Positions 1 through 25,306 of a DNA stretch of 25,306 nucleotides are shown in pieces (position 1 is the stretch's first letter; the number at the start of each line of letters is the position of its first letter). The position numbers and the translations under genes were made by a program. The notes beneath the pieces were generated by a model. The model saw only the letters and a program-made list of their open reading frames with translations. It did no database searches and was not told the origin of the DNA. Source of the stretch: Saccoglossus kowalevskii (Eukaryota > Hemichordata > Enteropneusta > Harrimaniidae); NCBI RefSeq assembly GCF_000003605.2, contig NW_003129862.1:146998-172303 (forward strand), read 5' to 3'.

Positions 1-162
1 CGACCAATCTTGGACTTTAATTCAATGTGTTGGTCAGGGTTCTGACCCTGTGTATTTTTCGGTGTGTACCGTTTAATTTCACTACCCTGGCTACGTGTTA
101 AAATGGGTATGAATTCACTCTGGATAAGTACGTACATAACCGACCAATCTTGGACTTTAATT
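1..162 (+). repeat. Direct repeat pair, ~140 bp period
   Basis: The 22-base segment beginning CGACCAATCTTGGAC at position 1 recurs at 141-162. A small perfect hairpin (CAGGGT / ACCCTG) lies between the two. This looks like the end of a tandem array that continues outside the window to the left. Confidence 0.6.
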
Positions 163-223
163 TGAATGCAGGTAAGGTACACCTACAGACATAACTGTGG
201 ACATTCAGTTCTTGGACTTTATT

Positions 224-1545
224 AGTCCCCGTTCGGACACAGTCCGAAAACGGGGACTTATGTTTTGCCCTGTTTGCGTCCGTCCGTCCGTCCGTGCGTC
301 CGTGTGTCCGTGCGTCCGTGATCACCTGTATCTCGAACATGCATGGACCGATTAAGTTCAAACTTCACTCATACATCACACATTATATGGGACATATGCA
401 CATGCATTTTTTTCATGATCTGATTAACGATAGCCGAATAGCGGCCATTTTAAGGCCGAAAATGCATCAAAATCGCACATTTTCACCATTCCGGACCCGG
501 ATCTCAGTTATGCATGGATGGATTTTCATTCAAATTTGGTACATACATTAAACATAATAGGACCTTGATGCACGTCATTTTTTTTTTTCGGATCAAGTTC
601 GAAATAGCCGACTGGCGGCCATTTTGTTGTAAAGAATTCAGTTCTGGATCCGTATCCGAGACATGTCTGGATTGATCAAGTTCAAACTTCACACACACAA
701 GGTACATCATGTCACAAATATGTATGTGCATTTGTTTCATGATCTCATTAACGATAGCCAAATGGCGGCCGCTTTAAGGCCGAAAATGCATTGAAATCGC
801 ACATTTTCACCATTCCGGACCCGGATCTCAGTTATGCATGGATGGATTTCATTCAAATTTGGTACATACATTAAACATAATAGGACCTTGATGCACGTCA
901 TTTTTTTTTTCGGATCAAGTTCGAAATAGCCGACTGGCGGCCATTTTGTTTTAAAGAATTCAGTTCTGGATCCGTATCCGAGACATGTCTGGATTGATCG
1001 AGTTCAAACTTCACACACACAAGGTACATCATGTCAAAAATATGTATGTGCATTTGTTTCATGATCTCATTAACGATAGCCAAATGGCGGCCGCTTTAAG
1101 GCCGAAAATGCATTGAAATCGCACATTTTCACCATTCCGGACCCGGATCTCAGTTATGCATGGACGGATTTCATTCAAATTTGGTACATACATTAAACAT
1201 AATAGGACCTTGATGCACGTCTTTTTTTTTTCGGATCAAGTTCGAAATGGCCGACTGGCGGCCATTTTGTTAAAGAATTCAGTTCTAGATCCGTATCCAA
1301 GACATGTCTGGATTGATCAAGTTCAAACTTCACACACACATGGTACATCATGTCACAAATAGATATGTGCATTTGTTTCATGATCTGCTTAACAATAGCG
1401 GAATGATGGCCATTTTAAGGCCGAAAATGCATCAAAATCACATATTTTCACAATTCCAGAACCGGATCTCAGTCATGCATGGATGGATTTTGTTCAGATT
1501 TAGCACAATGTGTTGTACATATGCAGGTGCATTTCGGTCATGATC
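224..1545 (+). repeat. Hairpin-headed interspersed repeat with ~320 bp tandem units (family A)
   Basis: It begins with a 35-base inverted repeat at 224-258 (AGTCCCCG...CGGGGACT), then a CGTCCGT-rich run (275-320), then tandem units. The landmark TTTCACCATTCCGGACC occurs near 481, 805 and 1127 with a diverged copy near 1446, giving periods of 324, 322 and 319. Each unit carries GCCGACTGGCGGCCATTTT and a poly-T run after GCACGTC. All open frames here come from the array. It is probably a non-autonomous mobile element, and no transposase is visible. Confidence 0.85.
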
Positions 1546-1560
1546 TGCTTTGAATGTATA

Positions 1561-2644
1561 TGTCACTCAAATATGAACGGAACGGGGACGTGTCATTGAC
1601 AATGACTTGTTTTAACCTAGTGTTTCTGTCATGCATAGTAAAATGTGAAAGAAAACAAAGGTGGTTGTCTGCGCTGGGATTGACTTTATCTAAGGCTGTT
1701 TCTATTATTAATAACTTTTTAACAAAACAACTACACTCTCACTATATGAACGACATACATTTGTAATGTGTACGTTTGTAGACTGGTACATGTTTGCTTC
1801 AAATGGAAAGGGAATGACATTGAAAGCGTTATAAAAACATTTCATAGTTTACTATGCAAACAGATTGTTTATGGTTGAGAACACAGGTAACAAAGTGTAA
1901 AACCCATTCCACTATGAGCAGCAAGACGTATCATATACACACTATTTACTGTGTGGTCACTGTGACTGACACACTAGCAGACCTAACATGTTCGTTCCAA
2001 ATACTAGCATTGCCATGTCCCAAATACAGCATTGCCTGGTCCCCAAATACTAGCATTGCCATGTCTCAAATACAGCATTGCCTGGTCCCAAATACTAGCA
2101 ATGCCATGTCCCAAATACTAGCAATACCATGTTTAAAAGAAATTATACATCAACTTACCAGAAGTATATTCCTCATTGAACAGAAATTAATTGTATTGTT
2201 ACCAGGGACAATTCTTGCTCTGACTATTGTATTAGCAGTGAATTTAGGTCAGGGGAGATAGGCATGGATGGAGGTGTAATCGCTGTCTACGACTTCAGTT
2301 GGGACACAAAAAATAGCAGTAATAATTCATTGGGCTTCTTTAAGCTTGGAGGCACAATTCCATTCATGGTATTTGGTTCAATGAATTCTGTCTTTTTAGT
2401 TATGAAAATTTACAGTGCATACATGTACTGTACCTTACTGGGTTTTATATATTTTTGTTCCCATTGCATAACTAATACCAGTATGTGTAGATCAAGTGAC
2501 TGTCATTGTAGCATGTATAGAAGTTTTTCATTACTATTACACATGCACATGTCATACTTGTATCGTAAATGGAGGAAGCAAATCCTTTATTTCTTAAAAA
2601 TGATGATAGCTTCAGTTCTTTTTTCTGTATCATTTTTTTTTTTT
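1561..2644. other. Non-coding stretch
   Basis: Apart from the small minisatellite at 1997-2131, nothing here is recognisable. The open frames at 1854-2261 and 2264-2653 have no domain, no splice support and a composition like the surrounding DNA, so they are not called. Confidence 0.5.
1997..2131 (+). repeat. Minisatellite, alternating ~21 bp units
   Basis: About six units of CCAAATACTAGCATTGCCATGTC alternate with a shorter variant, CAAATACAGCATTGCCTGGTC. The super-unit is therefore about 43 bp. The final units have lost the variant form. Confidence 0.85.
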
Positions 2645-3186
2645 GAGGAGTGATTTTACACCTTTTGTACAACTCTTACAGTGTTTGCACAAATATTGAT
2701 TGTATAGAGTTATTATTTTTTTGAGGAGTGATTTTTCACCTTTTGTACAACTCTTACAGTGTTTGCACAAATATTGATTGTATAGAGTTATTATTTTTTT
2801 GAGGAGTGATTTTACACCTTTTGTACAACTCTTACAGTGTTTGCACAAATATTGATTGTATAGAGTTATTTTTTTTTGAGGAGTGATTTTCACCTTTTGT
2901 TCAACTCTTACAGTGTTTGCACAAATATTGATTGTATAGAGTTGTTATTTTTTTGAGGAGTGATTTTACACCTTTTGTACAACTCTTACAGTGTTTGCAC
3001 AAATATTGATTGTATAGAGTTATTTTTTTTGAGGAGTGATTTTACACCTTTTGTACAACTCTTACAGTGTTTGCACAAATATTGATTGTATAGAGTTATT
3101 ATTTTTTTGAGGAGTGATTTTACACCTTTTGTACAACTCTTACAGTGTTTGCACAAATATTGATTGTATAGAGTTGTTATTTTTTT
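2645..3186 (+). repeat. Tandem array, seven copies of 76-78 bp
   Basis: Units start with GAGGAGTGATTTTACACC at 2645, 2723, 2801, 2878, 2955, 3031 and 3109. They differ by only a few bases, plus the length of a poly-T tract at the unit end. Because 78 is divisible by three, spurious frames arise on the - strand (a repeating CKHCKSCTKG peptide). They break where the unit is 77 or 76 bp. The high similarity suggests recent expansion. Confidence 0.95.
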
Positions 3187-3488
3187 CTGAAAAAATGAAA
3201 ACATTATCAGTAGTGATTGAATTGAAGGAAAAAAACTGTGGCATCAAATGTGTAAATACAGTATTGCATGAAAAATATTGAAGTTTAATGATGCCCTCCT
3301 TTTCAAAGTGCCAGATTGAGGGTGCTATTCACACAGGTTGCTGAGTTGTCTAGCCCAACTGTGCATATCTGTATCATTTATTTGAACTATTACAAGTGCC
3401 TACTCTGACCAGAACTCAGAAATACTATACATGTCTTATGCTATTTGATTGTTATGTAAATAGATGAAGTTCTGTAAAGGGGTTAATT

Positions 3489-3663
3489 ATTCACTGGGTT
3501 TTAATTTTGCCTATTCTGCTGACTGGAAAATGTGCTAAATTAAAACCTAGTGAATATGTAAAATTTAGCATAGAACACATTATCTAAATGATAAAACCGT
3601 GAATTTAAAACCCACTGAATATGCCTGAAATGGTAAATCAGGGAAATTTAAACCCAGTGAAAA
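3489..3663 (+). repeat. Four-copy motif cluster, one inverted
   Basis: The motif AAATTAAAACCCAGTGAAT occurs as its reverse complement at 3489-3508 and in forward orientation, slightly varied, at 3537-3555, 3602-3620 and 3644-3663. The first two copies form an imperfect hairpin of about 19 bp per arm with a short loop. Confidence 0.75.
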
Positions 3664-3957
3664 TTAGTCATTTTACAGTAATCATGTGCTATCCAGGAAT
3701 GTTATATCAGAAAATACCAGCACACACAGTATAGTGTTTTAAGTCTTGTCTCAAAAAAGCCTGTTGTATACTTATTCCTGTCATGATGAAAAATCTATAG
3801 CCAAGAGATATTGATGAAGATTACTGTATTTGCTCTATTAGAAATTCAAGAACTGATTTTATTGGTGAGAGCTTGCTGCCTACTGTGCCATTGCTCACAC
3901 ATGTTTGTATTCTGTGGAGATATTGTTGCCCTAAAACAGATTATGTCCATAATTATT

Positions 3958-4110
3958 TTTAGCTCTGCTGTTGACTTTGTCGAGCGGAGCTTATCATATG
4001 AGTGATTGTCCGTCGTCATAGCCGTCCGTGTCAATGTTTTACTTTCTCGACTTCTTCTTGAAAACTACAAGCCAAAATGCTGTTTTTTTAAACACGAGTT
4101 GCTCGATATA
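3958..4110 (+). repeat. Dispersed repeat fragment (family C)
   Basis: It opens with TTTTTAGCTC and contains GTGATTGTC and TTCTTGAAAACT. The same landmarks in the same order occur at 15058-15190, which suggests two diverged copies of one interspersed element. Confidence 0.45.
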
Positions 4111-4959
4111 CATAACTGTAAAATAATATTTTATGTTTAAAACCTTTAAAGGGATTGGTATCGAAAACTTTATGGATTGAAATTTGTGTTCAGTTTCTAG
4201 GTTTATTGTTTAAACAAATTTGTGCACAGTACAGAGCTCAGTTTTAACAGATTTCACCTCATAAGACATTCCTAGAATTTATTTGTAGATATCTGTAAAT
4301 GAGTTCATCCATTGTACAAGGACCACTCACTGTACATGACATGCTATCAATCAGGTGGTGTATTCTATATTGGTGTTCATTCACTTAGAATGAATTGAGT
4401 AAAAGAGCCAATGGCTTCGTTTACACATTGTTGGTATCCATTCCAAAGTCTCCTTTCAGAGAAACAAATAATATTTGATAAAGTTTAGGAGCAATGTTTG
4501 GAATTCGGTGTGTAGATATGCTAATGATATATTTATAACACAAGGGTTTGCCCTGTGAGAAACTGTTCAGTCAAGGTAGACAGACTAAGTGTACATAAGG
4601 GCTTACTGCTTTTAATGGTACATGCCCTAGAGCGATGCTAACCCCACTCACTTCCTGTGGCACACCTTAACCTTTAAAATGGTATAATTTTTCTTGCCAT
4701 AATATTGGTTCCATGTTTTGCACATTGTTATTTATTTAGGGTGGGAGGGAAGTGAAATCATTTTAAACCAAATGTCTCTATGAAATTGTAAATTTTTGGA
4801 AAACAATTAGGTAAGATTTTGTTGTTATTTTGAAGTGCAACAACTGTGACCTTGTCATTCAAAGGGTTTTACTTGAGGTCATGTGTATTGATGCAGGTAA
4901 AAGTCTTGAGAGTTCGCAAACATAGTTTTCATTCAAACCCCTACCCCCCATTGACAGTC

Positions 4960-5480
4960 TGTAAATGGAATGGCCCATCGTGTGGATTTGGACAGAACCA
5001 GAACGGTGTGAAATTATGAGGTGAAGATGCCCAACTGAGTTTGGTATAATCTACAATGGATAGTAGCGGAGTGATCACTGAATGATTCCAGTAGTTGTGA
5101 GATTCAAATGCTCAGCTGTTTTGCTATAGTAACCGCAATTGTCAGTGATTTGCACATGACGACTGCCATTATGAGTGCCTTTGATTGAGCATCTGTCCAG
5201 GCGCCATGTCTACGTTATGTATAGCTGTCGGTAAGTTATTAATCGCGTAATATACATCCCCGTACTCTGATGGCGAGGTAAAATTTGTTGTTCTATTCCA
5301 TCATGGACAATGTGTTTCCTCCCCATTGTAAGTTTGTATAAATGGTTTTACTTTTACTCCAAGATTACCATGTGAATAAGCTGTCGTCCTTTCTGTGTTG
5401 TTGTTGCATTGTTCAACCGAACTGGCCCGTGTGTTAAGCGTATGTGCTACCTGATGGTTACGTCAGTTACCTTTCATCAT
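4960..5480 (+). promoter_or_regulatory. Possible promoter and non-coding first exon region
   Basis: CpG dinucleotides are visibly more frequent here than in the surrounding DNA, and there is a good donor, GCTGTCG|GTAAGTT, at 5230/5231. An ATG at 5206 precedes it. If joined to the acceptor at 6771, that ATG would open only a very short upstream frame ending in TGA. This could be the start of the latrophilin-like transcript. No TATA box or initiator stands out. Confidence 0.2.
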
Positions 5481-6771
5481 CCCTAAGTGTAATGTTTCAT
5501 TAGTTTCTGTTTCATTGCTCCCTACAAGGTCTTTCCTAACTAAAACTAAAAAGGGATGTCATTGACATTTGTTTTGTTGTGATTGTAATGTTAGACTTGC
5601 ACATACAAAACGTGTGTAGTGTTATTTTTTAGTATCTGTTTTGTTTGTTTTTTGTCCTAAGTCTTAGGGCCAACATTATGAGTGATTGCACTTAATTTAA
5701 TGTCAACCCACAATGGGTCACTTTGTGAAAGTCACCAAAACTCACTGCCATAAGGACCACACTGAAATGCCTAAAAACTTTCCCTCCGTTATTACTTGAT
5801 TATCTTTTCAATCTTCTCTAACTAGACACTTCCAGAATTTGGTAATTTGAATCATTTGAAGCATATTGTCAAAATAAACATAGTTTTAGTACCATGCAAT
5901 GTACCACAGTAAATCGTCACTGCTTTAGAATTATATATAAAGTTAATCGAAAAGTCACTTCATTATTGGAGGAAACAATTTCATGTGTTTGTTTGTTCTT
6001 GTGTCCCTCAAGGATAACAACCATTCTACCCAGGGGTGTTTGTTTTTGTAATAAAAGCTTTTTTATTTATCACCATTTTTTTGAAACTTATAATTGTAAA
6101 CTTGTGTTGGTGAGATGCCTAAATCAAGCATTTCTGTTGTTGTGTTTTGTATTGAAACATTGTGCGTACCTAGAATATTATGGTATCCTATGGGGTGTCT
6201 CTTTTTATCTCCATCGGTATCCTGACTAATTAATTTGATTTAATTAATTTGGTTTGACATTTATCCCCTCATCAAAAATACATTTCAAGTTTTAAATAAT
6301 TTTACAGAACATTTAGGAGATCCAAAAAAATCACCTCCGTGGATGTCATTGACCTTGCCTACCTTGACAGTTTATCAACTTCTGTTAATATATTATTATT
6401 GCTATAGATGTCAATAAGTTGATTTGTGATGTGTTGATTTTAAAGCAATAAATATCCCACCTGCTTCCTAGCAGCCAGATAAAACTTAAGAAGTTCAGAA
6501 ATGTTTGAATTATTGCATTATTTTGTCTACAATGAAGGCTGTATTTTTTTTTTTAAATTCCAAAAACACTTTGCATATATGCAGTCTGATTTGCTCCAGG
6601 TTTGTATTGTCAAGTTCATGTACAAGCGAGACCTTAACTACTGTGGTGTACATTACATCTGAATTAACATAGGCCTTCATATGATGTATTGTGTTGAAAG
6701 TCCCTGCTGCTGTATCTTTGTCCACTATGACCTTGAATAACTATAAGACCTCTACTCATTGTATGTTGTAG
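5481..6771. other. Non-coding stretch upstream of the latrophilin-like gene
   Basis: This is AT-rich DNA without recognisable exons or repeats. The 111-codon open frame at 5894-6229 has no signal, domain or splice support and is judged random. Confidence 0.5.
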
Positions 6772-6846
6772 GTATTCACTGATGTGGAAGACTCAAGACT
6801 GAATTAAAGCTGTTTTTCTTCTTTTTTATCAACTAACGAGAACACT
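6772..6846 (+). other. Candidate 5' UTR part of latrophilin-like exon 1
   Basis: A plausible acceptor (CATTGTATGTTGTAG) ends at 6771. The 75 bases between it and the signal-peptide ATG contain no other ATG in frame with it. If real, an upstream non-coding exon should exist, and a strong donor at 5230/5231 is one possible partner. This rests only on splice-site appearance. Confidence 0.3.
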
Positions 6847-6907
6847 ATGAAGACTATTAGCCTTGGTTATGCAATAATTGTTTGTTTATGTGTACTTCAT
6901 GTAGCAG
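6847..6907 (+). CDS. Latrophilin-like exon 1: signal peptide
   Basis: This exon reads 20 codons plus one base: Met, Lys, then a hydrophobic stretch ([14 protein letters not shown]), which is a typical cleavable signal peptide. The donor is G|GTATGA. It leaves phase 1 and joins exon 2 (starting TT) as a Val codon. The start was chosen because it directly precedes the hydrophobic core and the downstream phase agrees. It is too short to stand out as an open frame on its own. Confidence 0.72.
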
Positions 6908-9900
6908 GTATGACAACTAATTATTTTTTTGTAATTATACCTTGGTTATGTTATTTGAGTCTTAACAAGAAAGTAGTGTTGTCTCCTGACTGGTACAAAA
7001 ATCCTCCATTTTTACTGCATCTGTAGTTTATGTAGTTTATTGTGAACCAAAAAAACAATTCATGATTCCATGAGTCAGAGAAATTATGTAGCAACAAAAA
7101 ATGTATTGTTGCAGTGACAATTTGAGACATCAACATAATTCAGAGACAACATAATTCAGGTGATCTGTCTGGACAATTCCACATCTGCACTGAAAACTAG
7201 TAAACAGTTAAATTTTGTTGATGAGCAAGATTTGAACTATTGAGTGCAAATGTGAGGGTTTAAATGTCACCAAAGCAACTCTAGTGATAAATGATTGAAA
7301 TGATTTTTTGTGATTCCTGCAATTTATCAAAAATCAACCATTGCAAAGCAAATAAATGGCAATCACACTTGATGCTGCAAAGTAATAGGAACAGCGCCCC
7401 CTAGTGGCTAGTCTTTCAAATATTTTTCTTTTGTTTTGGCTCTTGTTTACCTGTTGGGGTTTGGTTGGGAGGGGGGAATTTGAGATGTGGTCACAACTGA
7501 ATTTTGGATTTTGCAACATGAAACAGTGTGGATGACTGTTGAACTATTCAAGGATCAGCCAAGCCATGTCAAATACAAACCTCTGCAGATCTTAACCACT
7601 GTATGTCTCATGAGAGCAAGACAAATCATGGATTTTTTTAGCAGTGAAAATTTCTCTAGTGTGCTGGGACATGGAGTGTCAGTGACTTTTATGAAATTTT
7701 GTTTTGGAACAAGGTCTGCCCTAAACCATGAAATAGAGTTGTATAGAAATCATATAGTACAATATGATATTTCAAATTTTCAGTTTCTGAGTCTGCAGAG
7801 AACAGCTATGAAGAACCTGAAATTTATTACACTGTAGTATGTCAGAATCGTAACATGCAAATAGCGTGTTTTAATGGTAAAGTTATAGAAATTACCATGG
7901 CTAATTATGGTCGCAGTGATCAAAACACATGTCCTAAGCGTGGTGAAATGGATGACGTGAACTGCCGCGCTCTGTACTCTATGGACATAGTCTCTGAAAG
8001 GTAAGCACGTTACAGTTAGATACACTCAATTGTTGTAAGGAATATCTTTTGGTGAGATTAGCAATGTTGTCAGAAAAAATCAGGAATCAACTATTTCACT
8101 ACATAAAACCTCTTAATTTTTCCATATTTTTTCAAAAATATTAATCAAGCATTAAGAAAATGTTGCAGTGACAATATTTGAGGGGAAAATGACTAGCACA
8201 AAAAGGTATAATAAAATCTTAAATTCATTGTTCTCTTGTGTAAAACTTGTTTCAGACATTTTCCAAAAACTTTTTCTTCACAAAAAGTTATTCCATATTT
8301 TGCATGAGCAGAATATTGATATGTTGATAAACATTTTATTTATGCATCCAGTCGACTAATATTTAATACAATCAGCACTTACAGTAAACATGCATCTCCA
8401 TCATGTACAAAAAATGTACATGTTTGTATGATAAATCAGGCATCACATGTCATAGATCATAGGTCATAGGTCACAATTAACAGAATTATTTGTGTGATAC
8501 CAGAATTCTCATCAATATTCTAGAGTAGAGATTCTGCAATTTCTCATCCCAGTCTTCTGTCTTACCTTAGGGTAAATATTTCTAAACTAGCATTAGTAAT
8601 TTTGGACTTGACAAACATACATGTTTGAAAGAATTTCATAAACAAACTGACAACAGTATTGTATCTCAGTGGTAAAAATGTTTTTATGCAATTTTGGTGT
8701 TCGTTTTATGAATCTTTAGTTCACTAATTTTAGTGAACATTTTTGTTATTTTCGGTAAACAATGCTATTTTTGATTGCTAGCCCAATTGGTTTGTTATTT
8801 TATGCGTAGACACCTTGAGTGTCACTGGCAGATTTGTTCATTTTGTAATAAGTTTAATTTTCTAAACTTAGTAAATTTAGTAATTTTAAAATACCTAATA
8901 GAATGTAGCTATATCAGCTAATAGGCTGCTTGTTAGTGATATTTCGTAATTGTGACAAAATGCTATAAAATATTCTACGATTTTCATCCCATCATCATTT
9001 AACTCTTGCACATTTCATCTGACCATTGCATGTTGCGATGACCCCCTAACTCTGCATGTTCACATGATATTGGTAGATGTAATGGACGAGATAAATGTAC
9101 AGTGCCTGTAAATAATGGAATATTTGGTGGCGATCCTTGCCGAGGAACTCGTAAATATCTTGAAGTTCAGTACGAGTGCTTAGAATGTAAGTCTGTTTTA
9201 TAATCAGTATTCAGTTGTGCATTGTGTCTGCATGAGTATAACATGTCTGTGATGGAGCATGGTCGAAAATAGATGAGTTTCCAGTTCCTTGGTTGCAAAT
9301 CTGTCATGTGCTCAAAGAGAGAGAGGGGGCCGGGGTGTCAAATCACTTGGACTCACTTCCAGTCCAAAAAAATATGTAGTATTAAGCAGATATTTTACTA
9401 TACCGGCTTCAGTTTTGTTTTGAACATACTAATTTTGTATTTTAATCATCTAAGTTACCTTTGAAAGTTTACAAACTTGTTATTAAATTTAGAAAACACA
9501 ACAAAGTTAGATAAAATGTAATTTATATCGTTTTGGTATCTGTACATACTTTTGTAAGATATTTCTGGGACAACATACAATCATGTCTATCCAACTTGTG
9601 AAAACCTGAGACAAGCTGGCTCTGGGAGGAGGACTGCTTATAAAATCAAATCCCCTTTCTCTCATAAGTGCACTCAATAATGTAAGCATGCATGGAACAC
9701 TCCCTGAACTGTAAACTCATCTATTGTGCATTGCATTGTTTCTGTTGAAGCATGGTCAACAATTGTGCTAAAACAAAAATACTGAAGTCTGCATGAGTAT
9801 GCCATTCAGAGATTCCAACTAATAAAAACAAATGTAGACACAAGCACAGTTATTGGCTTTGCTCTTTTATATTATTTTTTTCTATTTTCTCTTTTATTCT

Positions 9901-12900
9901 CTCTATCTTGCGACTTCTGTTTTCTGTTGGTGTTGGTGGTGGTTTTTAGATGCTCTGGTTTGCTTCAATGTAGTATAAACGCATCATCAGAAATATTCAG
10001 TGATCCGTGTACAACTGTCAAGAAATACTTGGAAGTCAGATTCCAATGTGTTCGACCATGTAAGTGCTTATTACCCCGGTGAACAATAACACACAGCTAA
10101 CACTTACTTGTAGAATGTGTGATTATTGTCTCATTACAAGCTATCAGTTTTATCCACATTGAATTATAGTAATTTTTGATTTCATTGGTTGTGATTCAGA
10201 TGGCATTGAATTCAAGCAATGTATCATAAACTTATGAAGTGTGAGAGTTTGGGTGCATTATGGGAACTAATTTGACAAAATGTAGAAATTCAAATGAAAT
10301 AGAAAATTTAAAAATTCAAATAGCCATGACCGAATATATATTTTATGCAAAGAAAAAGAAATCCTATACAAGATCCAACAAATTCGAAACAAGGGCAGAA
10401 CACAGGAATTCAAAGTAAAAACATAATTTTGAGTAAAAATGATAGCTGTGGTGAAGTATGTGTGCAGATAATATCTATGAATGGTTTTGTGATTGATTAA
10501 TTTACTGTCTCTGATTGTGCTACATCTTTATCTAATTCTATTTGTTGATGAATTTGATATAATCATGTATTTATAATTCTTTATTTTGTTTTACTTTTTT
10601 AATCACAACCACAACTGATGTTCATGGTAAGCATTCTAGGATTTCTGTGCAAAAAGAAAATGACAAATTTTGAATTAATGAATTGCAATAGAAATCTGAA
10701 TGTCCTGCTCAAGACGGTGATTTTGAAGTATTGGTGTGAGGGAGCATGAATCCAGTTCATTTTTAGATTATTCTTTGTTGCTATTGACGAAATCCTTCTT
10801 AAAGCTGAAAAGATTAGTTTTCCAATCACGCCTGAATTGCCATGTCTACTTCCTTTATATTACTTGTGTCACATGGCATCATTAATTACAATACTTGTAC
10901 CTGTGATAGGCTGATACTATCACATAATCTGTACTCTTGTAAAGAAAAGTGACAATATGATTTTAACTTCAATCACTCCACAACCACACAGGTTTTAAGA
11001 TTGCTATCAATACGTTGGTACCAAGTGAGTCCCTTCTTGAGGGTCAAAACATTTAAATTTCTGGGGAGGCACATAGAAATTTATTTGGGAAAACTTTGTA
11101 ATAATAATAATAATAATAATATTTTATTAGCCTTTGAAACAGTGTAAAAAGAGGCATACAAGTCAGAAACAAGAAAAAAAAAAATGTAAAAGCATTCATA
11201 CATGTAAATCATTCAGTTTCTTGTTTCTGAATTTCCATAGGTGGATGAGAAAGTTTAGGATTCTTTTTGACGTATTATTTCCCAAATTCTTATTGATTGC
11301 TCATAAAGCATCACTAAATTTGAAATTAATTCTTCTCGAAAAAAATATATCAATAGTTGATTCTCCACCACTTTTCACTGTCAAGTGGTTAGTTGAATTT
11401 GCAAGGGAAGACGTGCAATCTAGGGGAAAAAAAATTACTTCGCTCTTTGACCAGTTACCCAACATTCACATGCTTTTTTTTAAAAATAATCATATATGGA
11501 CAACCAGCATCCCGTACTTTACCATTTATATCTACCGGTAAATATTAAACCCACTAAACGAGACAAAATTCTACAACTGTTTCAGCACAAATACCTGTTT
11601 CTACGACAATCAACCAAACAGTGATGCAGACCACAACGACTGTGGAGCCTACAAAACAGAAACCAGTCACTACTCCAACACAACCTCATAGAATATCACT
11701 GCCCACATTGCCTCCACCGCTGATAATTGAAACAACACAACAACCTGAAGGTATGTATGGTTTTATATAGATCTATTAATTCATATGCAAGTTTCTGTTT
11801 CTACACAAGCTTCTTTGCAACCATGCATTGTCAGGTTGATCTCATTTTTGGTGTTCAATTCTAGTTGCAACTTGCTGATCATGTGAGTACAGAAATCACT
11901 TAATCCAAAATCCAGGGATGATCTTGTACTTTTCATTAATTTGTTATAATAATTACTAGCAGTGTTGATTTGAAAATCCAAAATAAACTGATCATGAAAA
12001 ATGCTAACTTAATTTTGAACATTGTATTATCTCTTGGAAGATGCTTAGCGGTGTTTGGTATGACTTTGTATTCAATTGTTTAAATTAAATTGTATGCTTG
12101 TGATCAAATAATTTATTGTGTAGGCTGCTCATAGAATCTATAAATTTATCATTATTTTTATATTTCATGCTAAAACACTGCCCACAAATTGAACTGTTGA
12201 TCACCATTTCTAGTGAGATTCAGAAATAAATAGATTGGGTTCTGTCTATTTGCATGTATGCATGCATTACAGCCATTAATCTGCCATGCATGCTTTGTCC
12301 AATTCAGTTCAGATCTGGTACAAAAACAAGTCAAATTTTGGTGTTTGTCTTGTTTCTTTCATCATTCTCTTTCATCGCAATGTTATTAGTCCACGTTCGA
12401 ACAAAGTCCGAAAAGGTGGACTATTAATTTGGGTTTGTTACGCCCGTCCGTATGTACGTCCGGAGCTATATCTTGGACACTCATTGACGGATTTCATTCA
12501 AACTTTACATGAAGACAATACATAATGTCTTACATATGCGCGTCCAATTACTTTATTATCGGAGCAAAATGGCCGACTGGCGGCCATTTTGGATGTAAAA
12601 TTTGCTATTTCTGATACCTAAACATGTCTGCAGCAGTTTCTCGGAGATGACTGGGCTGATTTGAATCAAAGTTGGTATGATGATCATACATATTGGGTTG
12701 TAGGTGCACGTCATTTTTTTTCCCGTGATTCGAACAAATGTGGCCGACTGACGGCCATCTTGTTTTTCATGGTACCCATGCTACTTTATCTTGAATGCAA
12801 TGAACGTTTCTGTTTAAATTTTGTACAAAGATAGTATACCAAGAGATACATCTGCACCAACATGATTTTTGTGATTCGATTCAATATGGCTTACCGACGC

Positions 12901-13539
12901 CNNNNNNNNNNNNNNNNNNNNNNNNNNNNNNNNNNNNNNNNNNNNNNNNNNAAAATTTCCTGTAAAAGCGTTAACCGTCCAGAGCTGTTTCTCAGAGATG
13001 ACTAGGCTGATTTGAATCAAAATTGGTATAGTGATCATACATATTGGGTTATAGGCGCACGTCATATTTTTTTCGTGATTGAAAAAATTATTTCCGACTG
13101 GTGGCTATTTTGTTTTTCATGAATGCAATGAACATTTCTGTTTAAATGTTGTACAAAGACAGATAGATACAACAACATGAACATTATTTTTGTAATTTGA
13201 TTCAATATGACTGCCCAATGTCCAATTCTCGTATAAAAGCACTAAATCATAATTTTTTAATGGTTTCAATCTAATCTCAATGACTTCATCAGCATCAAAT
13301 TGATATGTCAGATCACAAAATTTTGGAGGGGGACTGTGTCATTAACAATGACTTGTTTATTGTTGTGTTATCCATAGAAACAACAGATAGTAAATTTAAA
13401 ACCACCAAAGTGGAAGTCAAAGTTACAACTGATAGAAGACGATTATACTGCCCTGCAGTTAAAGTGAGAGATATAGATTGGCCGGAAACATTAACTGGTT
13501 CTGGAAATGTTATTAAACAGTGTCCCTCTGGTACAACGG
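6847..13539 (+). CDS. Latrophilin/CIRL-like adhesion GPCR, N-terminal part (spliced)
   Basis: The coding exons are 6847-6907, 7784-8000, 9077-9186 (or 9950-10059), 11586-11750 and 13378-13539. Joined, they give 238 codons plus one base, with every splice phase matching. Domains in order: signal peptide (about residues 1-20); SUEL/RBL lectin domain with the full 8-cysteine pattern, YGR motif (62-64), DPC and KYLEV motifs (about 38-127); Thr/Pro-rich linker (about 130-205); and the first half of a HormR domain (C209, W219, C233-P, G-T-T-G). Invertebrate latrophilins have exactly this order, with no olfactomedin domain between lectin and HormR. In that family the ectodomain sits at the cell surface and binds adhesion partners such as teneurins; the sugar ligand here is unknown. 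The GAIN, GPS and seven-helix exons are not seen before the next gene, so the 3' end is missing. A secreted or other SUEL plus HormR protein is the alternative. Confidence 0.78.
6908..7783 (+). other. Latrophilin-like intron 1
   Basis: GT...AG intron of 876 bp. The open frame starting at 7487 runs through the acceptor into exon 2 in a different frame and is a shadow. It contains the CTCF-like motif at 7393-7407. Confidence 0.7.
7393..7407 (-). promoter_or_regulatory. Exact match to canonical CTCF core motif
   Basis: The - strand reads CCACTAGGGGGCGCT, the classic core of the bilaterian CTCF site, inside a GC-rich island within AT-rich intron DNA. Partial matches (AGCGCCCTC) lie at 16444-16453 on + and 24784-24792 on -. 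Binding is inferred from the motif alone. Confidence 0.45.
7784..8000 (+). CDS. Latrophilin-like exon 2: first half of SUEL/RBL lectin domain
   Basis: The acceptor is TTTTCAG and the donor AAG|GTAAGC, with phase 1 in and phase 2 out. An acidic segment ([12 protein letters not shown]) is followed by the lectin start, with cysteines at residues 40, 49, 70 and 81. The family motif [11 protein letters not shown] is present, and its Tyr-Gly-Arg loop contacts sugar in rhamnose-binding lectins. The exon ends at IVSER, exactly where the next half-domain begins with CNG. Confidence 0.9.
8461..8473 (+). promoter_or_regulatory. DR1-type nuclear receptor half-site pair
   Basis: AGGTCA-T-AGGTCA is a perfect direct repeat with one-base spacing, the form bound by RXR/HNF4/COUP-type receptors. 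It sits in a short tandem run (CATAGATCATAGGTCATAGG), so slippage could have made it without function. Confidence 0.3.
8720..8940 (+). repeat. Dispersed repeat fragment (family D)
   Basis: It contains ATTTTAGTGAA-ATTTTTGT, CTAGCCCAATTG and AGCTATATCAGC in order, shared with 23457-23770 and in part with 15240-15330. Copies are diverged, AT-rich and non-coding. Confidence 0.55.
9077..9186 (+). CDS. Latrophilin-like exon 3a: second half of lectin domain (version a)
   Basis: This 110-nt exon has a weak acceptor (TATTGGTAG) and a strong donor (T|GTAAGT), with phase 2 in and phase 1 out. The 36 codons run CNGRDKC, then [19 protein letters not shown], then YEC, which completes the four C-terminal cysteines of the SUEL fold. 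The canonical DPC and KYL motifs are intact, as is the Asn before FG that is usually present at the sugar site. It is probably the default version of the domain half. Confidence 0.9.
9187..9949 (+). other. Interval between lectin exons 3a and 3b
   Basis: 763 bp of non-coding DNA. A first half of a lectin domain (YGR motif, four cysteines) was searched for here and not found. The 14-mer GTCTGCATGAGTAT occurs at 9226-9239 and again at 9787-9800. Confidence 0.65.
9950..10059 (+). CDS. Latrophilin-like exon 3b: alternative second half of lectin domain
   Basis: This exon is also exactly 110 nt, with acceptor GGTTTTTAG, donor T|GTAAGT, phase 2 in and phase 1 out, identical to exon 3a. The 36 codons begin CSGLLQC and contain [20 protein letters not shown]. 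All four cysteines, DPC and KYLEV are kept, while the surface and loop residues differ (GT becomes TV, NNG becomes SSE). It cannot follow exon 3a in frame, because that junction hits a TAA within about ten codons. It can replace 3a between exons 2 and 5. No separate first-half exon was found for it. The alternatives are a decaying duplicate or a remnant of a second lectin domain. Confidence 0.78.
10060..11585 (+). other. Latrophilin-like intron before the linker exon
   Basis: A candidate LINE tail lies at about 11098-11170. A possible 33-nt microexon lies at 10992-11024. The long open frame at 11134-11541 lies in and beyond the LINE tail and has no coding features. Confidence 0.6.
11098..11170 (-). 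mobile_element. Candidate 3' tail of a LINE-type retrotransposon
   Basis: On the - strand, AGGCTAATAAAATATTATTATT leads into an (ATT)n tract at 11098-11120. This is the usual 3' end of several non-LTR elements. No protein remnant was recognised in the DNA before it. Confidence 0.4.
11586..11750 (+). CDS. Latrophilin-like exon 4: Thr/Pro-rich linker
   Basis: The acceptor is CTGTTTCAG and the donor AAG|GTATGT, phase 1 to phase 1. The 54 codons are rich in Thr, Pro and Gln ([20 protein letters not shown], then TLPPP, ending ETTQQPE). This is a mucin-like, probably O-glycosylated stalk of the kind that separates the lectin and HormR domains in latrophilins. There are no cysteines. It is compatible with either version of exon 3. 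Confidence 0.82.
11751..12387 (+). other. Latrophilin-like intron 4, 5' part
   Basis: Unique-looking AT-rich intron DNA before the family B repeat begins. No exons or motifs were recognised. Confidence 0.6.
12388..13250 (+). repeat. Hairpin-headed repeat with ~350 bp tandem units (family B), interrupted by gap
   Basis: It opens with a 35-base inverted repeat at 12388-12422 (AGTCCACG...GGTGGACT), built like the one at 224-258, and a CGTCCGT-type run follows. Two tandem units are visible: TCGGAGATGACTGGGCTGAT near 12641 and TCAGAGATGACTAGGCTGAT near 12992. It shares GCCGACTGGCGGCCATTTT and the poly-T landmark with family A, so the two are relatives. It lies within an intron. Confidence 0.8.
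12902..12951. other. Assembly gap (50 N)
   Basis: Exactly 50 unknown bases lie between two copies of the ~350 bp repeat unit. The round number suggests a placeholder, so the true distance and number of repeat units are unknown. Confidence 0.98.
13378..13539 (+). CDS. Latrophilin-like exon 5: end of linker and first half of HormR domain
   Basis: The acceptor is TATCCATAG and the donor ACGG|GTAAGT, phase 1 to phase 1. It continues the Thr-rich linker ([10 protein letters not shown]) and then reads [20 protein letters not shown] and KQCPSGTTG. This matches the HormR pattern of Cys, Trp-Pro, Thr, Gly, then Cys-Pro-x-Gly-Thr. The second half of HormR (further Cys and Trp residues) should follow in phase 1 but is not found downstream. 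This exon lies on the far side of the assembly gap from the other exons. Confidence 0.8.
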
Positions 13540-16232: not shown

Positions 16233-16396
16233 ATGGTGGCAGTTACCTTATTTCTGGGTTGGTATTAAAGCCTACGATATTGTTGCTGGAAAGCAGTGTC
16301 TTAAAAAAAGTTATTTCCTTTCAAAAGCCAAGGCATTGGAGATATTCCCTATGCTCAAGAAAGATGCACTTGTAGGAGCACTTGTTTATTATGATG
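16233..16396 (+). CDS. GPD2: GPD2 exon a
   Basis: The acceptor is TTCTTGCTAG and the donor G|GTGAGT, phase 2 in and phase 1 out. It reads WWQLPYFWVGIKAYDIVAG, then SYFLSKAKALEIFPMLKKDA, ending ALVYYD. In complete homologues this block follows a segment ending in about PVYK. That preceding exon was searched for back to position 1 and not found, so this is an internal exon standing as the first visible one. Confidence 0.97.
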
Positions 16397-19300
16397 GTGA
16401 GTATTATACTGCCCTCTGAAGGTGGAAAATAGCTTTGCTAGACAGCGCCCTCTTTTGCTACGAATTGAAAATTATGCCAAATTCAAACTTTATAATGTGT
16501 TTAATGTGAAGTGTTAGATGATAAAACTGTGACCTTGGTAGCAGTTATCATCTGTTGCATAGATAAATGATATACTTCTATTTAGAATGTAAGGCCAAGC
16601 CTCAAGATGACTTGCTCAGTGGAATTCGTCGCTTGTAGAATTGTTTGGGATTGTATCAAATTGGTCATTGTGGATTCCTTGCAAGATATTCAAACACAAG
16701 ATTTATTCATGATTCTACTCAGCTTAAAATAATTTACAAGCACCAAACTGAATCTGAAAACAAAATGATTTTTCTAAAGCTTTGAGGCAATTGGCTACTA
16801 GTATAACAATGTAGTAATGGCTTTCATGGCTGAAACTATTTCATCTTCAGTGAAGGGCCAGAATCCTTCTATTTTTGCATTAGAGTTGTCACCAACTTTA
16901 AGTAGCATATATATTCACCATCTATGTATGTGTACAGGTCATAGTGTTTTAGCATTGTGACTTGGTAAAGTAACTCCCTGGACAGAACACCAAATAGATA
17001 TCAATAATTACAACATATGAGATCCATTATATTAGTGATTGCATGGATGTCTTATTAAACAGGTATGAACTGCATTATTGCCAGCTACTTATTTATGTAA
17101 TACTGTGCTAAAATGGTCTTTGTGATACCAAATTAGTAAATGCAAGTTAATGCGCATTACATGTAAGTAGCTGGAAATTCATTTTTCCAGCTGTCTAGGT
17201 GCTGTTTATATGTGCATATCCTGGTGCCTAGGTGCTGTTTACATGTGCATGACCAACTGCCTAGTTGCTGTTTACATGTGCATATCCTGCTGTCTAGATG
17301 CTGTTTACATGTGCATAGCCTGCTGCCTAGGTACTGGTTGCATGTGCATGACCTGCTGCCTAGGTGCTGTTTACATGTGCATGACATGCTGCCTAGGTGC
17401 TATTTACATGTGCATATCCTGCAGCCTAGGTGCTGTTTACATGTGCATAGCCTGCTGCCTAGGTGCTGTTTACATGTGCATAGCCTGCTGCCTAGGTACT
17501 GGTTACATGTGCATGACCTGCTGCCTAGGTGCTGTTTACATGTGCATGACCTGCTGCCTAGGTTTACATGTGCATGACATGCTGCCTAGGTGCTATTTAC
17601 ATGTGCATATCCTGCAGCCTAGGTGCTGTTTACATGTGCATAGCCTGCTGCCTAGGTGCTGTTTACATGTGCATAGCCTGCTGCCTAGGTACTGTTTACA
17701 TGTGCATGACCAATTGCCTAGGTGCTGTTTACATATGTATAGCGTGCTGTCTAGGTGTTATTTACATGTGCATCACCTGCTGCCTAGGTGCTGTTTACAT
17801 GTGCATATCCTGCTGCCTAAGTGTTATTTACATGTGCTTATCCTGCTGCCTAGGTACCGTTTACATTTGCATGACCTGCTGCCTAGATGATGTTTACATG
17901 TGCATATCCTGCTGCCTAGGTGTTGTTTTACATGTGCATGACCAACTGCCTAGGTGCTGTTTACATATGTATAGCGTGCTGTCTCGGTGTTATTTACATG
18001 TGCATCACCTGCTGCCTAGGTGCTGTTTACATGTGCATATCCTGCTGCCTAGGTGTTATTTACATGTGCATATCCTGCTGCCTAGGTGTTGTTTACATGT
18101 GCATGACCCACTGCCTAGGTGCTGTTTACATATGTATAGCGTGCTGTCTAGGTATTATTTACATGTGCATCACCTGCTGCCTAGGTGCTGTTTACATGTA
18201 CATATCCTGCTGCCTAGGTGTTATTTACATGTGCATATCCTGCTGTCTAGGTGCTGTTTACATGTTTATAGCCTACTGCCTAGGTGTTATTTACATGTGC
18301 ATAACCAGCTGCATATGTACTGTTTACATGTGCATATCCTGCTGCCTAGGTGCTGTTTACATGTGTATAGCCTACTGCCTAGGTGCTGTTTATATGTGCA
18401 TCCTAACTTTTTACCTAATGTATATTCAATTGGATATATTGTGAAGATCATTTTGGTTCAGTATTACTTTTATCAAATATTTGTATAAAGTTGGTGAAAC
18501 ACACAATTTGTAAATGTCAGTGACCTGACTATCATCTATACACATACTCACAATTTGTTTATTTGTAGGTACGCACAATGATGCCCGTATGAATATTACG
18601 ATAGGTTTGACCGCAGCAAGACTCGGTGCTACCATTGCCAACCATACTGAGGTATTGGAGCTGACAAAGACAACAACAGATAATGGAAGAAAAGTTATTA
18701 GTGGTGCTAAACTCAAAGATTGTCTGTCAGGTAAAATACAAATGTATATATATTATATTAGTGCTAGCTACGGGAAGGTAAACATGTTTTAATTTATCTA
18801 TCTCTGTAGGTGCTTGTGTGGGTTAATAATAATAATAATAATTTCATTTACCGGTATTACACCATAATGAAAGTACACCATAATGAAAGTTAACAAATCA
18901 TTTTAGGCTATTATGTAATAAATTTGAAAAAAAAAACAGTACCAGTAACAAAATAGAAGTTAAAAAATTAAGATAAATACAGTGTGGTGATATACAATTA
19001 TGTATGATAAGTACATGTCTATGTGTCATGTTTCTTAAAACAAAGTTTTAAGTATTTAGTCACATGCTTGATTAATTTATGTTCTTTTGTATTAATAATA
19101 GTTTTGAATTTGTTTATATTGTTTTCTGATTGAAAAGTGGGGAGTACATTTGTGAACTCTGTATAAAGTATTTCTCTTTCAGTATTATAAAAATCACACC
19201 CTGTTACAAAATGTATTTCATCTTCAATTTCTGATGAAGTGCATTTTTTACAGATTCAATGAATTGTTGTTGACTGCGTTGACTGTTTCCTGTCTTCAGC

Positions 19301-22300
19301 ATTTGTGAGTCCACTTCTGTAACTCTAGATCAGTATGAACAAATATAATTTCTGCAGGATTCTTGTACTGACTTGACCCTCAGTGTTCAACGCTGCTCTT
19401 CTTAATCCAGATATTGTCATCTGCCATTTCCACATGTCCTCATGACGTCCTCAATGCTAGCAATCCAAAGTTGGTTCTCTCAGTTTATTGAGCCATTTGA
19501 TCCTTCAAGTTAACACCATAAATCCTTCTCACCATCCTCATGTCATTTCTTTCAAGCCTTAACATATCTTCATTCTTAATGCCTACACATTTCATGACCA
19601 TAACTGAATTAATTTTCTGTGAGAACCTTCTTGTTTGTATCAATGTAGCAAATTTATTAAAACAATCTTAGGTGGTTTTCTTTTTCCTGTGTTTTGTTTG
19701 TGTATTTATGTGCATGTTTGTCTTGGTGTTTCTGTGTTGTGTTTTTCTTTTTCTTTAGTTTCTTATTCATATTGAATATAGTTGTTGTAACCTTTTTCAT
19801 TCCCTCGAGGGGATGTGTGAGTGTTAATGAATAACTAAAAAAAGGACACTAGGGAATGCAAAGGCTCAGTGCACTACAATATGGTGTAGTCAATATGGTG
19901 GACAACATAAATATAAATTATGTCTGTGCATTTGACTACTTTATCTCTAAAACTTTCTCAATGACTACAGTGGCATGTAGTAGGGAAGTATATAAAGTCA
20001 ATTCTTACTGTGGACATACAAATACTTCTTTCTAATAAATGGGATGTTCTAATTTGGTCTTGTCCATAATAAAATGGAAGAGAAAGTCTATACCGTTAAT
20101 AGTTCTGTCCATTTTGTCAGTGGTATCATCATCGTTCATTAACTCAAAAAGCTTTTTTTTCAAACTTAGGCATTTTATGTATCAGTATGATATCTTGCCA
20201 ATGTACTGGTTTAGTGTAGCTCACTTCATGGGATACGATGGTAATAAACGTATGCACACATTCACAAGTTATGGAGTTTGTTTTTCCTGACATTTCTTTA
20301 TATCTTGACTACTACATTATCTCAATAATGTTCAGATCACAAACAGAAATGGATCCCCCCATAGCATTGTGCTCTCAAACAACAGCTTTTTTGTGTTGTT
20401 TACAACAAAGAGATCTTGGTGTACTTTATTTACACTATCTAGTACCATCCCCATCATTATACTAACGTTTGTAAGACCAAACCTATTAGAGAATACCAGG
20501 ACAGGCATAAGATATATTTTCTTTGATATAACTCAAGTTTATTTGAATTCCAATGTTAGACAAACATACAAGGTTATGGTTGAGTACGGACACACTATAT
20601 CCAAGGAAATGTTTATTATTGTGAACTTATTTTTTTATACATAATTTTTTCAAAAACGGGTTACATTTGTGACTTGCTACATGGGCCAGGATGTTTACAT
20701 GCGTATTATTAAAAGATCACACACACACAAAAAAGAATTACATAGGGTAAATAAGGATATTTTCATGGAATAACTAAAATTTACAATATTGCTCTAATTC
20801 TCACATTCATGGATCTGCATTCATGTTCTTCAGGTCAAACCTTTGAAGTAAAAGCAAAAGCTGTAATCAATGCCACAGGTCCATTCACGGATAAAATACG
20901 TCAAATGGCGAATAATGAAATACAACCGATATGTCAACCAAGTGCTGGTGTCCATATTGTATTACCAGGCTATTACAGGTAAGCTTATCACTACTACTAC
21001 ATGTATAAAGGGTACTGTGACAGGCACATGATGAAATACAGTCGATACGTTAGCCATGTGCTAGTGTCCATTTTGTGTTACCATGGTAATACAGGTAAGC
21101 CTATCATCATTGGTGTAGTGATTGTCAGTGTAGCAAGCAAATGATTCGATAAATGGATTGTTTCCATAACAACAACTGTTATGGTTCAATCTAGTGTCTT
21201 TCATAATTTTATATGTACATGATTCTTACAGTCCAGAGACAATGGGTCTGTTGGATCCCGCCACCAGTGACGGTAGAATTATTTTCTTTTTGCCATGGTT
21301 GAATAAGACATTAGCAGGGACTACGGATACACCGTGTGAGTTGTCACACTCTCCAGCACCATCAGAAAAAGACATACAGTTTATATTGGATGAAATCAAA
21401 AACTATCTCAGTCCAGATGTACAAGGTAAATCTTCTGAAGTATTTTCGCTGTTTTTTCTGTGGTGTTTGTCTTGTTTCATCACTTTAGTTTACTCTGTTC
21501 ATTTCAATATTTAATATCTTATCAAATACTGAATGACTATGTCTTGTTTTTTGATTGATGCAAAAGTCTTTTTTTCTCTGAAATTAATGAGATAATTACT
21601 GTTGCAACAAAAACCATGTTGATTTATGATGTGATTAATAGTTTATTCATTACTTTCTAGTGAGACGAGGTGATGTGTTAGCAGCGTGGAGTGGTATTAG
21701 ACCATTAGTGACGGATCCCTCTGCCAAGAATACACAGTCACTTTCTAGGAATCACGTTATTGAAGTCAGTCCAGAAAGACTCATCACAATAGCAGGTATA
21801 GAATGCTGACAATCACTGTCAGTGGTTTGAATCTGCCTCACAATTATCAGCAAGAATAATTTGAAATCAGCAGTAGAAGTTACCCTAAAGACTGCTAAGA
21901 CAACTATGTGTCCTGTTTAAGCCTGTTAAATAGTGATTCATTCTTTCATTTTGTCTACTGATCTGTGTAAGGTATTTAGAACGTCATGTTGGAAGTAAAT
22001 TAAACACTATTTGCAAGTACGGTAACTTACTTGTTTTGGAAGTGTTAAAAACATTATTATTACTCATTTGTGATTATAATAACATACAAAAAATTGATTT
22101 GTTAGTTTGTTATGAAATGCAAGTAAAATTCAACTTTGTTTCATCACAAGTGAATAGTGGAAAACTGCATGTTTTTTTTTTAAAAACAACAGGAAATTAA
22201 AAATTTTTGAATGATAAACTGAACATTGAAAACAACTCATTGTCGAAACTGAGTTTACTCATTCACGCTGGTCACAATAAAATACTGTATTTGGCATCAA

Positions 22301-24037: not shown

Positions 24038-25150
24038 GTAAGAAAATGGCAAAAAATAAGATATTTGCCCATGATTTACCAAAGATTACAGCATAATAGT
24101 GATAACTTGTACATCTTCAATATCTGCTGATTATCAGAGAAATATCTAGGTGGGATATTGTTCATTGAGAGTGAATTATATATTGAATAAACCAAAATGT
24201 TGAGATATTACTGGTATAACCAATCTGGAATAACTTACCAAAATGTTGTTTCAAAATGGAGATATTGTTAAGATGAACAAATCTTTGACAAAATCTACTG
24301 ACGCCGCAGGAAGAAGCTTATGTCTCTATTTAGTTGCTTAATTTGCATACATATTATTATTATTATACATCTGACACCAAAAACAATACTTTATAGAATT
24401 TACCTGTCCATAAAACACCTTACAGCTGTGTGCGAAAGTGTTACGAATGTATTTGAATGACTTGCTAACAGATTTATATAATAATAAACTTATCATAAGA
24501 ATACCGCAAAGTGTGGACTCCAGGAGTTTTTCGAGAGAAAAAATGCAAGAGAGAGCACTGCAATTCAGCAGAGCCAACAAGTGGGGGAGATAGGGTTCTC
24601 CCTACCAGGGTGTGGAGTTTTTGATAATTCTAAGTTAAAATGGAGCATTCTATGGCTTCCTTAGGGCCAAAATTACTATCAGACAGGTCAAAGTTAAAGA
24701 CTGTGGCCCACATGTGATCTCTGGTCAATCAGAATTTTATGGTTGCCAGAGGATCAGGGTAAGGGGGCGCATGGCCATGGCATGAGGGCGCTGCACCCCT
24801 GTTCCCTTGTTTAAAAAAATCCCTGGACTCAGGCAGTGCAGTAAAGCATCATTTGATATGATCACAATATTGCCTTAATGGATACTTTGCAGTATTCTCA
24901 TAATCTCACAGTTCCTACCACCAAACTGAGAACTTATGAAAAATTGAAAGACTCTTATAATTTTGAAAAAATACTTGGATGTGTTGAATTTGAAACAAAG
25001 AATTTCAATGACAAAATTTTGAATAGAAATAGAATAGAAAAAGGGAGGCATACACAACAACAAATACCTACTGAAAACAGAATTTGCAAAAAATTTACAC
25101 AGATGAACTGCATTTTGTTATGCACTTTTGCTCACAAAATAAAGTAATAC
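24038..25150 (+). other. Start of GPD2 intron after exon g
   Basis: It begins with a good donor (GTAAGA). No further GPD2 exon and no other gene was recognised. Open frames in this stretch have no domain support. Confidence 0.7.
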
Positions 25151-25306
25151 ACTGACAAATCATACAAGACATTACGCTGACAAATCATACAAGACATTAC
25201 GCCAACAAATCATACATGACATTACGCTGACAAATCATACAAGACATTACGCCAACAAATCATACAAGACATTACGCTGACAAATCATACAAGACATTAC
25301 GCTGTA
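25151..25306 (+). repeat. 25-bp tandem array running off the window
   Basis: Six near-identical units of GCTGACAAATCATACAAGAC plus ATTAC, with GCTGAC and GCCAAC variants intermixed. The array continues to the window edge and probably beyond. Confidence 0.95.

Follow-up and report, generated by a model that had tools for sequence, protein, structure and literature searches.

Two exons encoding one lectin half-domain

A stretch of 25,306 nucleotides (nt) from the genome of the hemichordate Saccoglossus kowalevskii (contig C2164, positions 146998 to 172303; here called the window) raises the question of whether a latrophilin-type gene can exchange half of its lectin domain by alternative splicing. 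The window contains two exons, 3a and 3b, that each encode the second half of a rhamnose-binding lectin (RBL) domain and that share one upstream exon for the first half. The best explanation of the sequence, and one that we consider probable, is jointly that the gene belongs to the latrophilin type and that 3a and 3b form a mutually exclusive two-exon cluster. Searches covered the whole genome assembly (572 Mb, 4,830 contigs), and published papers are cited for the passages that bear on each point. The coding exons recognized in the window are as follows.

6847-6907, + strand: first coding exon, taken from the presumed start codon; in frame with exon 2; signal-peptide-like by eye
7784-8000, + strand: exon 2, encoding the RBL first half common to both forms (Pfam SUEL_Lectin positions 2-50; alignment to mouse Lphn1)
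9077-9186, + strand: exon 3a, version a of the RBL second half, starting CNGRDKC (Pfam, hidden Markov model [HMM] and alignment)
9950-10059, + strand: exon 3b, version b of the RBL second half, starting CSGLLQC (Pfam, HMM and alignment); carries an NAS sequon, none in 3a
11586-11750, + strand: linker exon, Thr/Pro-rich, in frame after 3a or 3b
13378-13539, + strand: exon resembling the first half of a hormone-receptor-motif (HRM) domain by eye; in frame after the linker exon

The original prediction had described 3a and 3b as phase-matched duplicates, and our analysis returned the same features at the same coordinates. Each exon is 110 nt long, is bounded by GT-AG introns, is entered in phase 2 and left in phase 1, and contains 36 codons with four cysteines, DPC and KYLEV. 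The first base of either exon completes the AGA codon begun in exon 2, and the last base is the first of the next codon. As predicted, both exons are in frame with exon 2 and with the linker exon, and the exon chain from 6847 to 13539 has one open frame whichever of 3a and 3b it contains.

The reading frame favors the use of exactly one of the two exons, because a transcript with both, or with neither, would be frameshifted and meet an early stop. In the exon model with both 3a and 3b, the stop lies at nt 415 and the last modeled junction at nt 663. When both are skipped, the stop lies at nt 382 and the junction at nt 443. Nonsense-mediated decay (NMD) usually requires a stop 50 to 55 nt or more upstream of a junction; the skip-both stop, at a distance of about 60 nt, exceeds this limit by little. 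Products with both exons or with neither would thus be expected to trigger NMD. In the predicted product, exon 2 would provide the first half of one RBL domain, and 3a or 3b would provide the end of the helix, strand 4, loop 2 and strand 5.

The splice sites are compatible with the use of either exon. Scored with a donor matrix, the donors of 3a and 3b reached 9.34 and 9.46, which rank 13th and 12th among 1,666 GT sites. The acceptors are ordinary, with 11 pyrimidines in 21 positions each, and a CTAAC lies 31 nt upstream of 3a.

Both exons were recognized as lectin-coding by profile searches. Exon 2 joined to 3a matched Pfam SUEL_Lectin with 90.3 bits, and exon 2 joined to 3b matched it with 78.5 bits (cutoff, 31.4). 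The hallmarks of RBL domains are eight cysteines, a YGR motif and a DPC...KYL motif (PMC3269628). All of these are complete in both joined forms, with four of the eight cysteines and the YGR motif encoded by exon 2, except that in 3b the DPC motif lacks its G-T. A genome-wide search with the SUEL_Lectin profile gave 37 matches. Three of them lie on C2164, namely exon 2 (32.6 bits), 3a (45.3 bits) and 3b (33.2 bits, profile positions 44 to 80). Using an HMM built from 10 rows that included neither 3a nor 3b, we obtained 65.8 bits for 3a and 45.3 bits for 3b (E value, 3.7e-13). No third copy of exon 3 was found in the window, where other segments reached at most 4.9 bits with this HMM and at most 5.3 bits in a separate scan.

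The two exons have diverged far from each other. The alignment of 33 residues has 14 identities, and 48.5% of the nucleotides in those codons agree (36 of 110 nt without gaps). Their equal length hides an offset, as 3b has one codon fewer before DPC and one more after the last cysteine. Nine of the 14 common residues are written with different codons, synonymous differences are saturated (pS, 0.93) and dN is 0.58. We simulated free drift from 3a (20,000 runs, 51 of 99 nt changed), which retained a mean of 6.4 identical residues, reached at least 14 with a P value of 5e-5, kept all four cysteines with a P value of 3e-4 and left the frame open in 20% of runs. These P values are a guide only, because the simulation started from 3a and 3b was chosen for looking intact. 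Judged by these comparisons, 3b looks genuinely coding and is not a recent copy of 3a.

Age of the pair and competing explanations

The boundaries of exon 3 are found in other latrophilin genes. Exon 8 of mouse Adgrl2 is 110 nt long (Table 3 of PMC13108381); it is entered in phase 2 and left in phase 1, and exon 7 ends within the same Arg codon. S. kowalevskii has two latrophilin-type paralogues, on contigs C1055 (209304-209936) and C3044 (1092848-1092957), and each of these contigs also has seven-transmembrane (7TM) matches in the same orientation. The matching exon 3 is 116 nt in C1055 and 110 nt in C3044, with the phases of 3a and 3b. The window gene thus has the latrophilin-type exon boundary, and the length of 3a and 3b is probably inherited, since the Adgrl2 and C3044 exons have the same length and phases. 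On this comparison, exon 3 is an old latrophilin unit.

Exon 3a is closer to the C1055 exon (23 of 34 residues) than 3b is (14 of 33). In six columns, including an inserted Gly before DPC, 3a and C1055 differ from the state most frequent among ten other RBL halves, a state that is weak in three of those columns (2, 3 and 3 of the 10 halves). Exon 3b shares none of the six with 3a and C1055 and has the most frequent state in three; a single column (Ile) unites 3a and 3b. In a tree of 18 exon halves over 33 columns, 12 of the 15 inner branches were open and two were starred, and the grouping of 3a with C1055 had values of 89/91. Exon 3b was not placeable and had a long branch (1.72). From the column pattern, the pair looks older than the split between 3a and C1055, or else 3b, with its long and unplaced branch, evolved fast.

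Elsewhere in the genome, seven complete RBL matches and a partial one lie in tandem on the minus strand of contig C4360 (2289-11818), spaced by about 1.3 kb.

Several results weigh against mutually exclusive use of 3a and 3b, beginning with the long branch of 3b. Likeness to the comparison exons is 13 to 17 of 33 residues for 3b and 16 to 22 for 3a, lower for 3b in nearly all cases, as would also be expected of a decaying exon. The paralogues C1055 and C3044 each have a single exon 3 in their readable part. In C1055, neither the readable 666 nt that follow the exon up to a stretch of N (208638-209303) nor the listing of the genome-wide family search contained a 3b-like exon; a 3b may lie beyond this readable part. 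Known mechanisms of exclusion were also sought. Steric hindrance was ruled out, as the intron between 3a and 3b is 763 nt and too long, and a U2/U12 clash was ruled out, as the donors are U2-like. The best pairings among the three introns scored 26, 28 and 30, compared to 24 to 39 after first-order resampling of the sequence (six times per pair). Finally, in a survey of human genes, 1,399 of 6,541 candidates were verified as mutually exclusive, and many similar adjacent exons were not; exclusivity was judged there by junction reads of each exon that bridge the other (PMC5740500). The mechanism that remains would be a regulated choice between 3a and 3b, with NMD removing the wrong products.

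Alternatively, 3b could be the decaying relic of an ancient duplication, unspliced or spliced only as noise, leaving 3a as the sole working exon. Its long branch, the loss of Gly117, its lower similarity to the comparison exons and the presence of just one exon 3 in each paralogue, as far as these are readable, would all fit such a history. Against it, 3b has kept its open frame, four cysteines, DPC, Lys120 and KYLEV despite the low nucleotide identity to 3a, the simulated drift rarely spared all four cysteines, and both splice sites of 3b are intact, its donor ranking slightly above that of 3a. We therefore regard a relic as unlikely, although it is the most probable of the alternatives. Less probable still is that 3b is alternative but not strictly exclusive, being joined through a frame-restoring exon, placed in a second lectin domain or used in a variant transcript with another end. 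RBL domains often occur in tandem (PMC3269628), and the original prediction had itself named a second full lectin domain containing 3b as the case that would overturn it. By family search, no second exon for a first RBL half was found on the contig, and no further segment of the window resembled an RBL half above the 5.3 bits given above.

It is very improbable that the assembly created the pair by setting exons of separate alleles or loci next to each other. The contig is probably misjoined elsewhere, since the gene for mitochondrial glycerol-3-phosphate dehydrogenase (GPD2) is split between C2164 and C2113. Nevertheless, exon 2, 3a, 3b and the linker exon all lie on one N-free piece (1-12901), the nucleotide identity of 3a and 3b is far too low for alleles, and the genome search reported no further copy of the gene that is nearly identical. 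Mutually exclusive splicing, as originally proposed, is the best reading of two exons that are homologous, phase-matched and constrained, with good splice sites and a frame that would tolerate only one of them.

The probable misjoin may affect how far the gene can be followed downstream. GPD2 exons on the + strand at 16233-24040 cover query residues 127 to 505, and the start of the gene lies on the minus strand of C2113 (34237-35273), with residues 2 to 91 found by search and exon 1 by eye. C2164 was probably joined wrongly either in the stretch that runs from the HRM-like exon to 16,233 or in a 50-N gap, unless GPD2 is split or rearranged otherwise. This gap (12902-12951), a likely place for a wrong join, has the linker exon on one side and the HRM-like exon on the other and interrupts a repeat that looks similar, by eye, to the repeats at about 240 to 1600. 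The HRM-like exon had no Pfam match and was recognized by eye only. No GAIN or 7TM domain was found within the window, and none of the 76 genome matches to 7TM lay on C2164, the window flanks being read as N. A search for the 7TM half by likeness to C1055 gave 46 matches; besides C1055 itself, partial ones of similar strength, covering one part or another, lay on several contigs (C3044, 63%; C1048, 57%; C4305, 55%; C410, 54%; C3325, 53%). No Rfam family matched the window at its gathering score. The window also contains tandem arrays at 403-1501 (322-bp unit, 3.4 copies), 2638-3186 (78-bp unit, 7.1 copies), 17190-18401 (33-bp unit, 36.8 copies) and 25148-25304 (25-bp unit, 6.3 copies).

Predicted effects on partner recognition

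The original prediction had suggested that the exchange could switch sugar specificity or adhesion, and our comparisons weaken this claim. The rhamnose pocket of mouse latrophilin-1 is formed by Glu42 and Tyr63 of the first half and by the backbone nitrogens of Gly117 and Lys120 in loop 2 of the second half (PMC2430599). In that protein, E42Q raised the Kd for rhamnose about 80-fold, from 1.78 to 141 mM, and K120R abolished binding (PMC2430599). Rhamnose binding thus needs Glu at position 42 (PMC2430599); in the window gene this residue is Gln and is encoded by the shared exon 2. Since Gln42 would be present in both forms, both are predicted to be poor binders of rhamnose or galactose. Tyr63 and Lys120 are retained in both forms. 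In the paralogues, C1055 has Asp at 42 and Glu at 117, and C3044 has Ala at 117.

Loop 2, which is part of the sugar pocket, differs between the two forms. In mouse Lphn1 numbering, 3a has Gly117-Thr118-Arg119 and 3b has Thr-Val-Lys. The NAS sequon (N-X-S) of 3b falls at position 105, at the edge of loop 2 (residues 106 to 120); one such sequon per 33 residues may be due to chance. Both forms should fold, because each exon brings four cysteines for disulfides within and between the halves (Cys96-102, Cys50-128 and Cys83-115, with pairings from PMC2430599).

The published teneurin contacts argue against a simple adhesion switch. They include L39, P51, D54, D67 and D72 of Lphn1, which were changed as a set (PMC6978801), and R44, D49 and D67 of LPHN3 (PMC7195488). 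In our numbering, all of these map to the half encoded by exon 2. By residue identity alone, P51, D54, D67 and D72 correspond to F, K, D and P in the window gene, so that one of the four (D67) is kept. On the other hand, a teneurin glycan inserts into the sugar pocket of the lectin (PMC7195488), and that pocket is partly formed by loop 2 of exon 3, which favors some role of exon 3 in adhesion. Conservation of the teneurin interaction in invertebrate latrophilins has itself been argued against (PMC6422961). According to the same paper, RBL plus HRM without olfactomedin is how these proteins are usually built in hemichordates, echinoderms, molluscs and other groups, and the window gene, with its HRM-like exon, would fit this layout.

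Together, these comparisons suggest that the exchange would most likely alter, by way of the loop-2 face and perhaps a glycan, how the lectin recognizes a partner that is a protein or glycoprotein, rather than act as a simple change of sugar specificity. Tentatively, we propose a more specific scheme, which we hold possible but less than likely. An old pair, predating the split of the window gene and C1055, would offer an open loop-2 face in the 3a form and a rebuilt, glycan-masked loop in the 3b form, and this could switch the partner choice of an adhesion G protein-coupled receptor (GPCR) or of a secreted ectodomain.

Known splice switches and significance

In FGFR genes, exons IIIb and IIIc each cover the second half of a single extracellular Ig domain, and the alternative exons of Dscam encode half of an extracellular recognition domain. 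The principle of a half-domain swap is known from these systems. Dscam uses arrays of many exons, whereas the window gene has two. Like 3a and 3b, FGFR IIIb and IIIc are two alternative exons, and the FGFR isoforms differ in ligand repertoire (PMC3192734). The FGFR case concerns an Ig domain of a receptor kinase in which both the splicing and the ligand switch are proven, whereas the window gene has an RBL domain whose splicing is predicted.

Alternative splicing at the RBL domain has been described for vertebrate latrophilins, where splice site A (SSA) inserts 4 or 5 residues after the lectin domain and lowers the affinity for teneurin (PMC6629964). In mouse Adgrl2, the SSA mini-exon 9 follows immediately after the 110-nt exon 8 (PMC13108381). 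SSA adds or removes a linker peptide, whereas the window gene would exchange the second half of the domain. Drosophila Cirl and C. elegans LAT-1 are invertebrate latrophilins with several isoforms, some without the 7TM part (PMC13197933). The splicing section of that 2026 review of adhesion GPCRs covers 7TM-less forms, EGF-repeat variants and others, and mentions no alternative lectin halves. In agreement with the original prediction, which knew of no such report, we found no latrophilin or RBL domain with such an exon pair, nor any exchanged lectin half, among the matches listed in open-licence PMC papers.

As the 110-nt exon with the same boundaries is common to mouse Adgrl2 and to this animal's genes, the exchange would make use of an old, ready-made unit. 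In the papers found, latrophilin splicing at this place only adds or removes a short linker behind the domain. If the reading proposed here is true, a half-domain swap would occur in a latrophilin-type lectin, the domain that binds teneurins in mammals, and the two natural versions of this lectin would provide a handle on its partner, as a molecule that binds one form and not the other.

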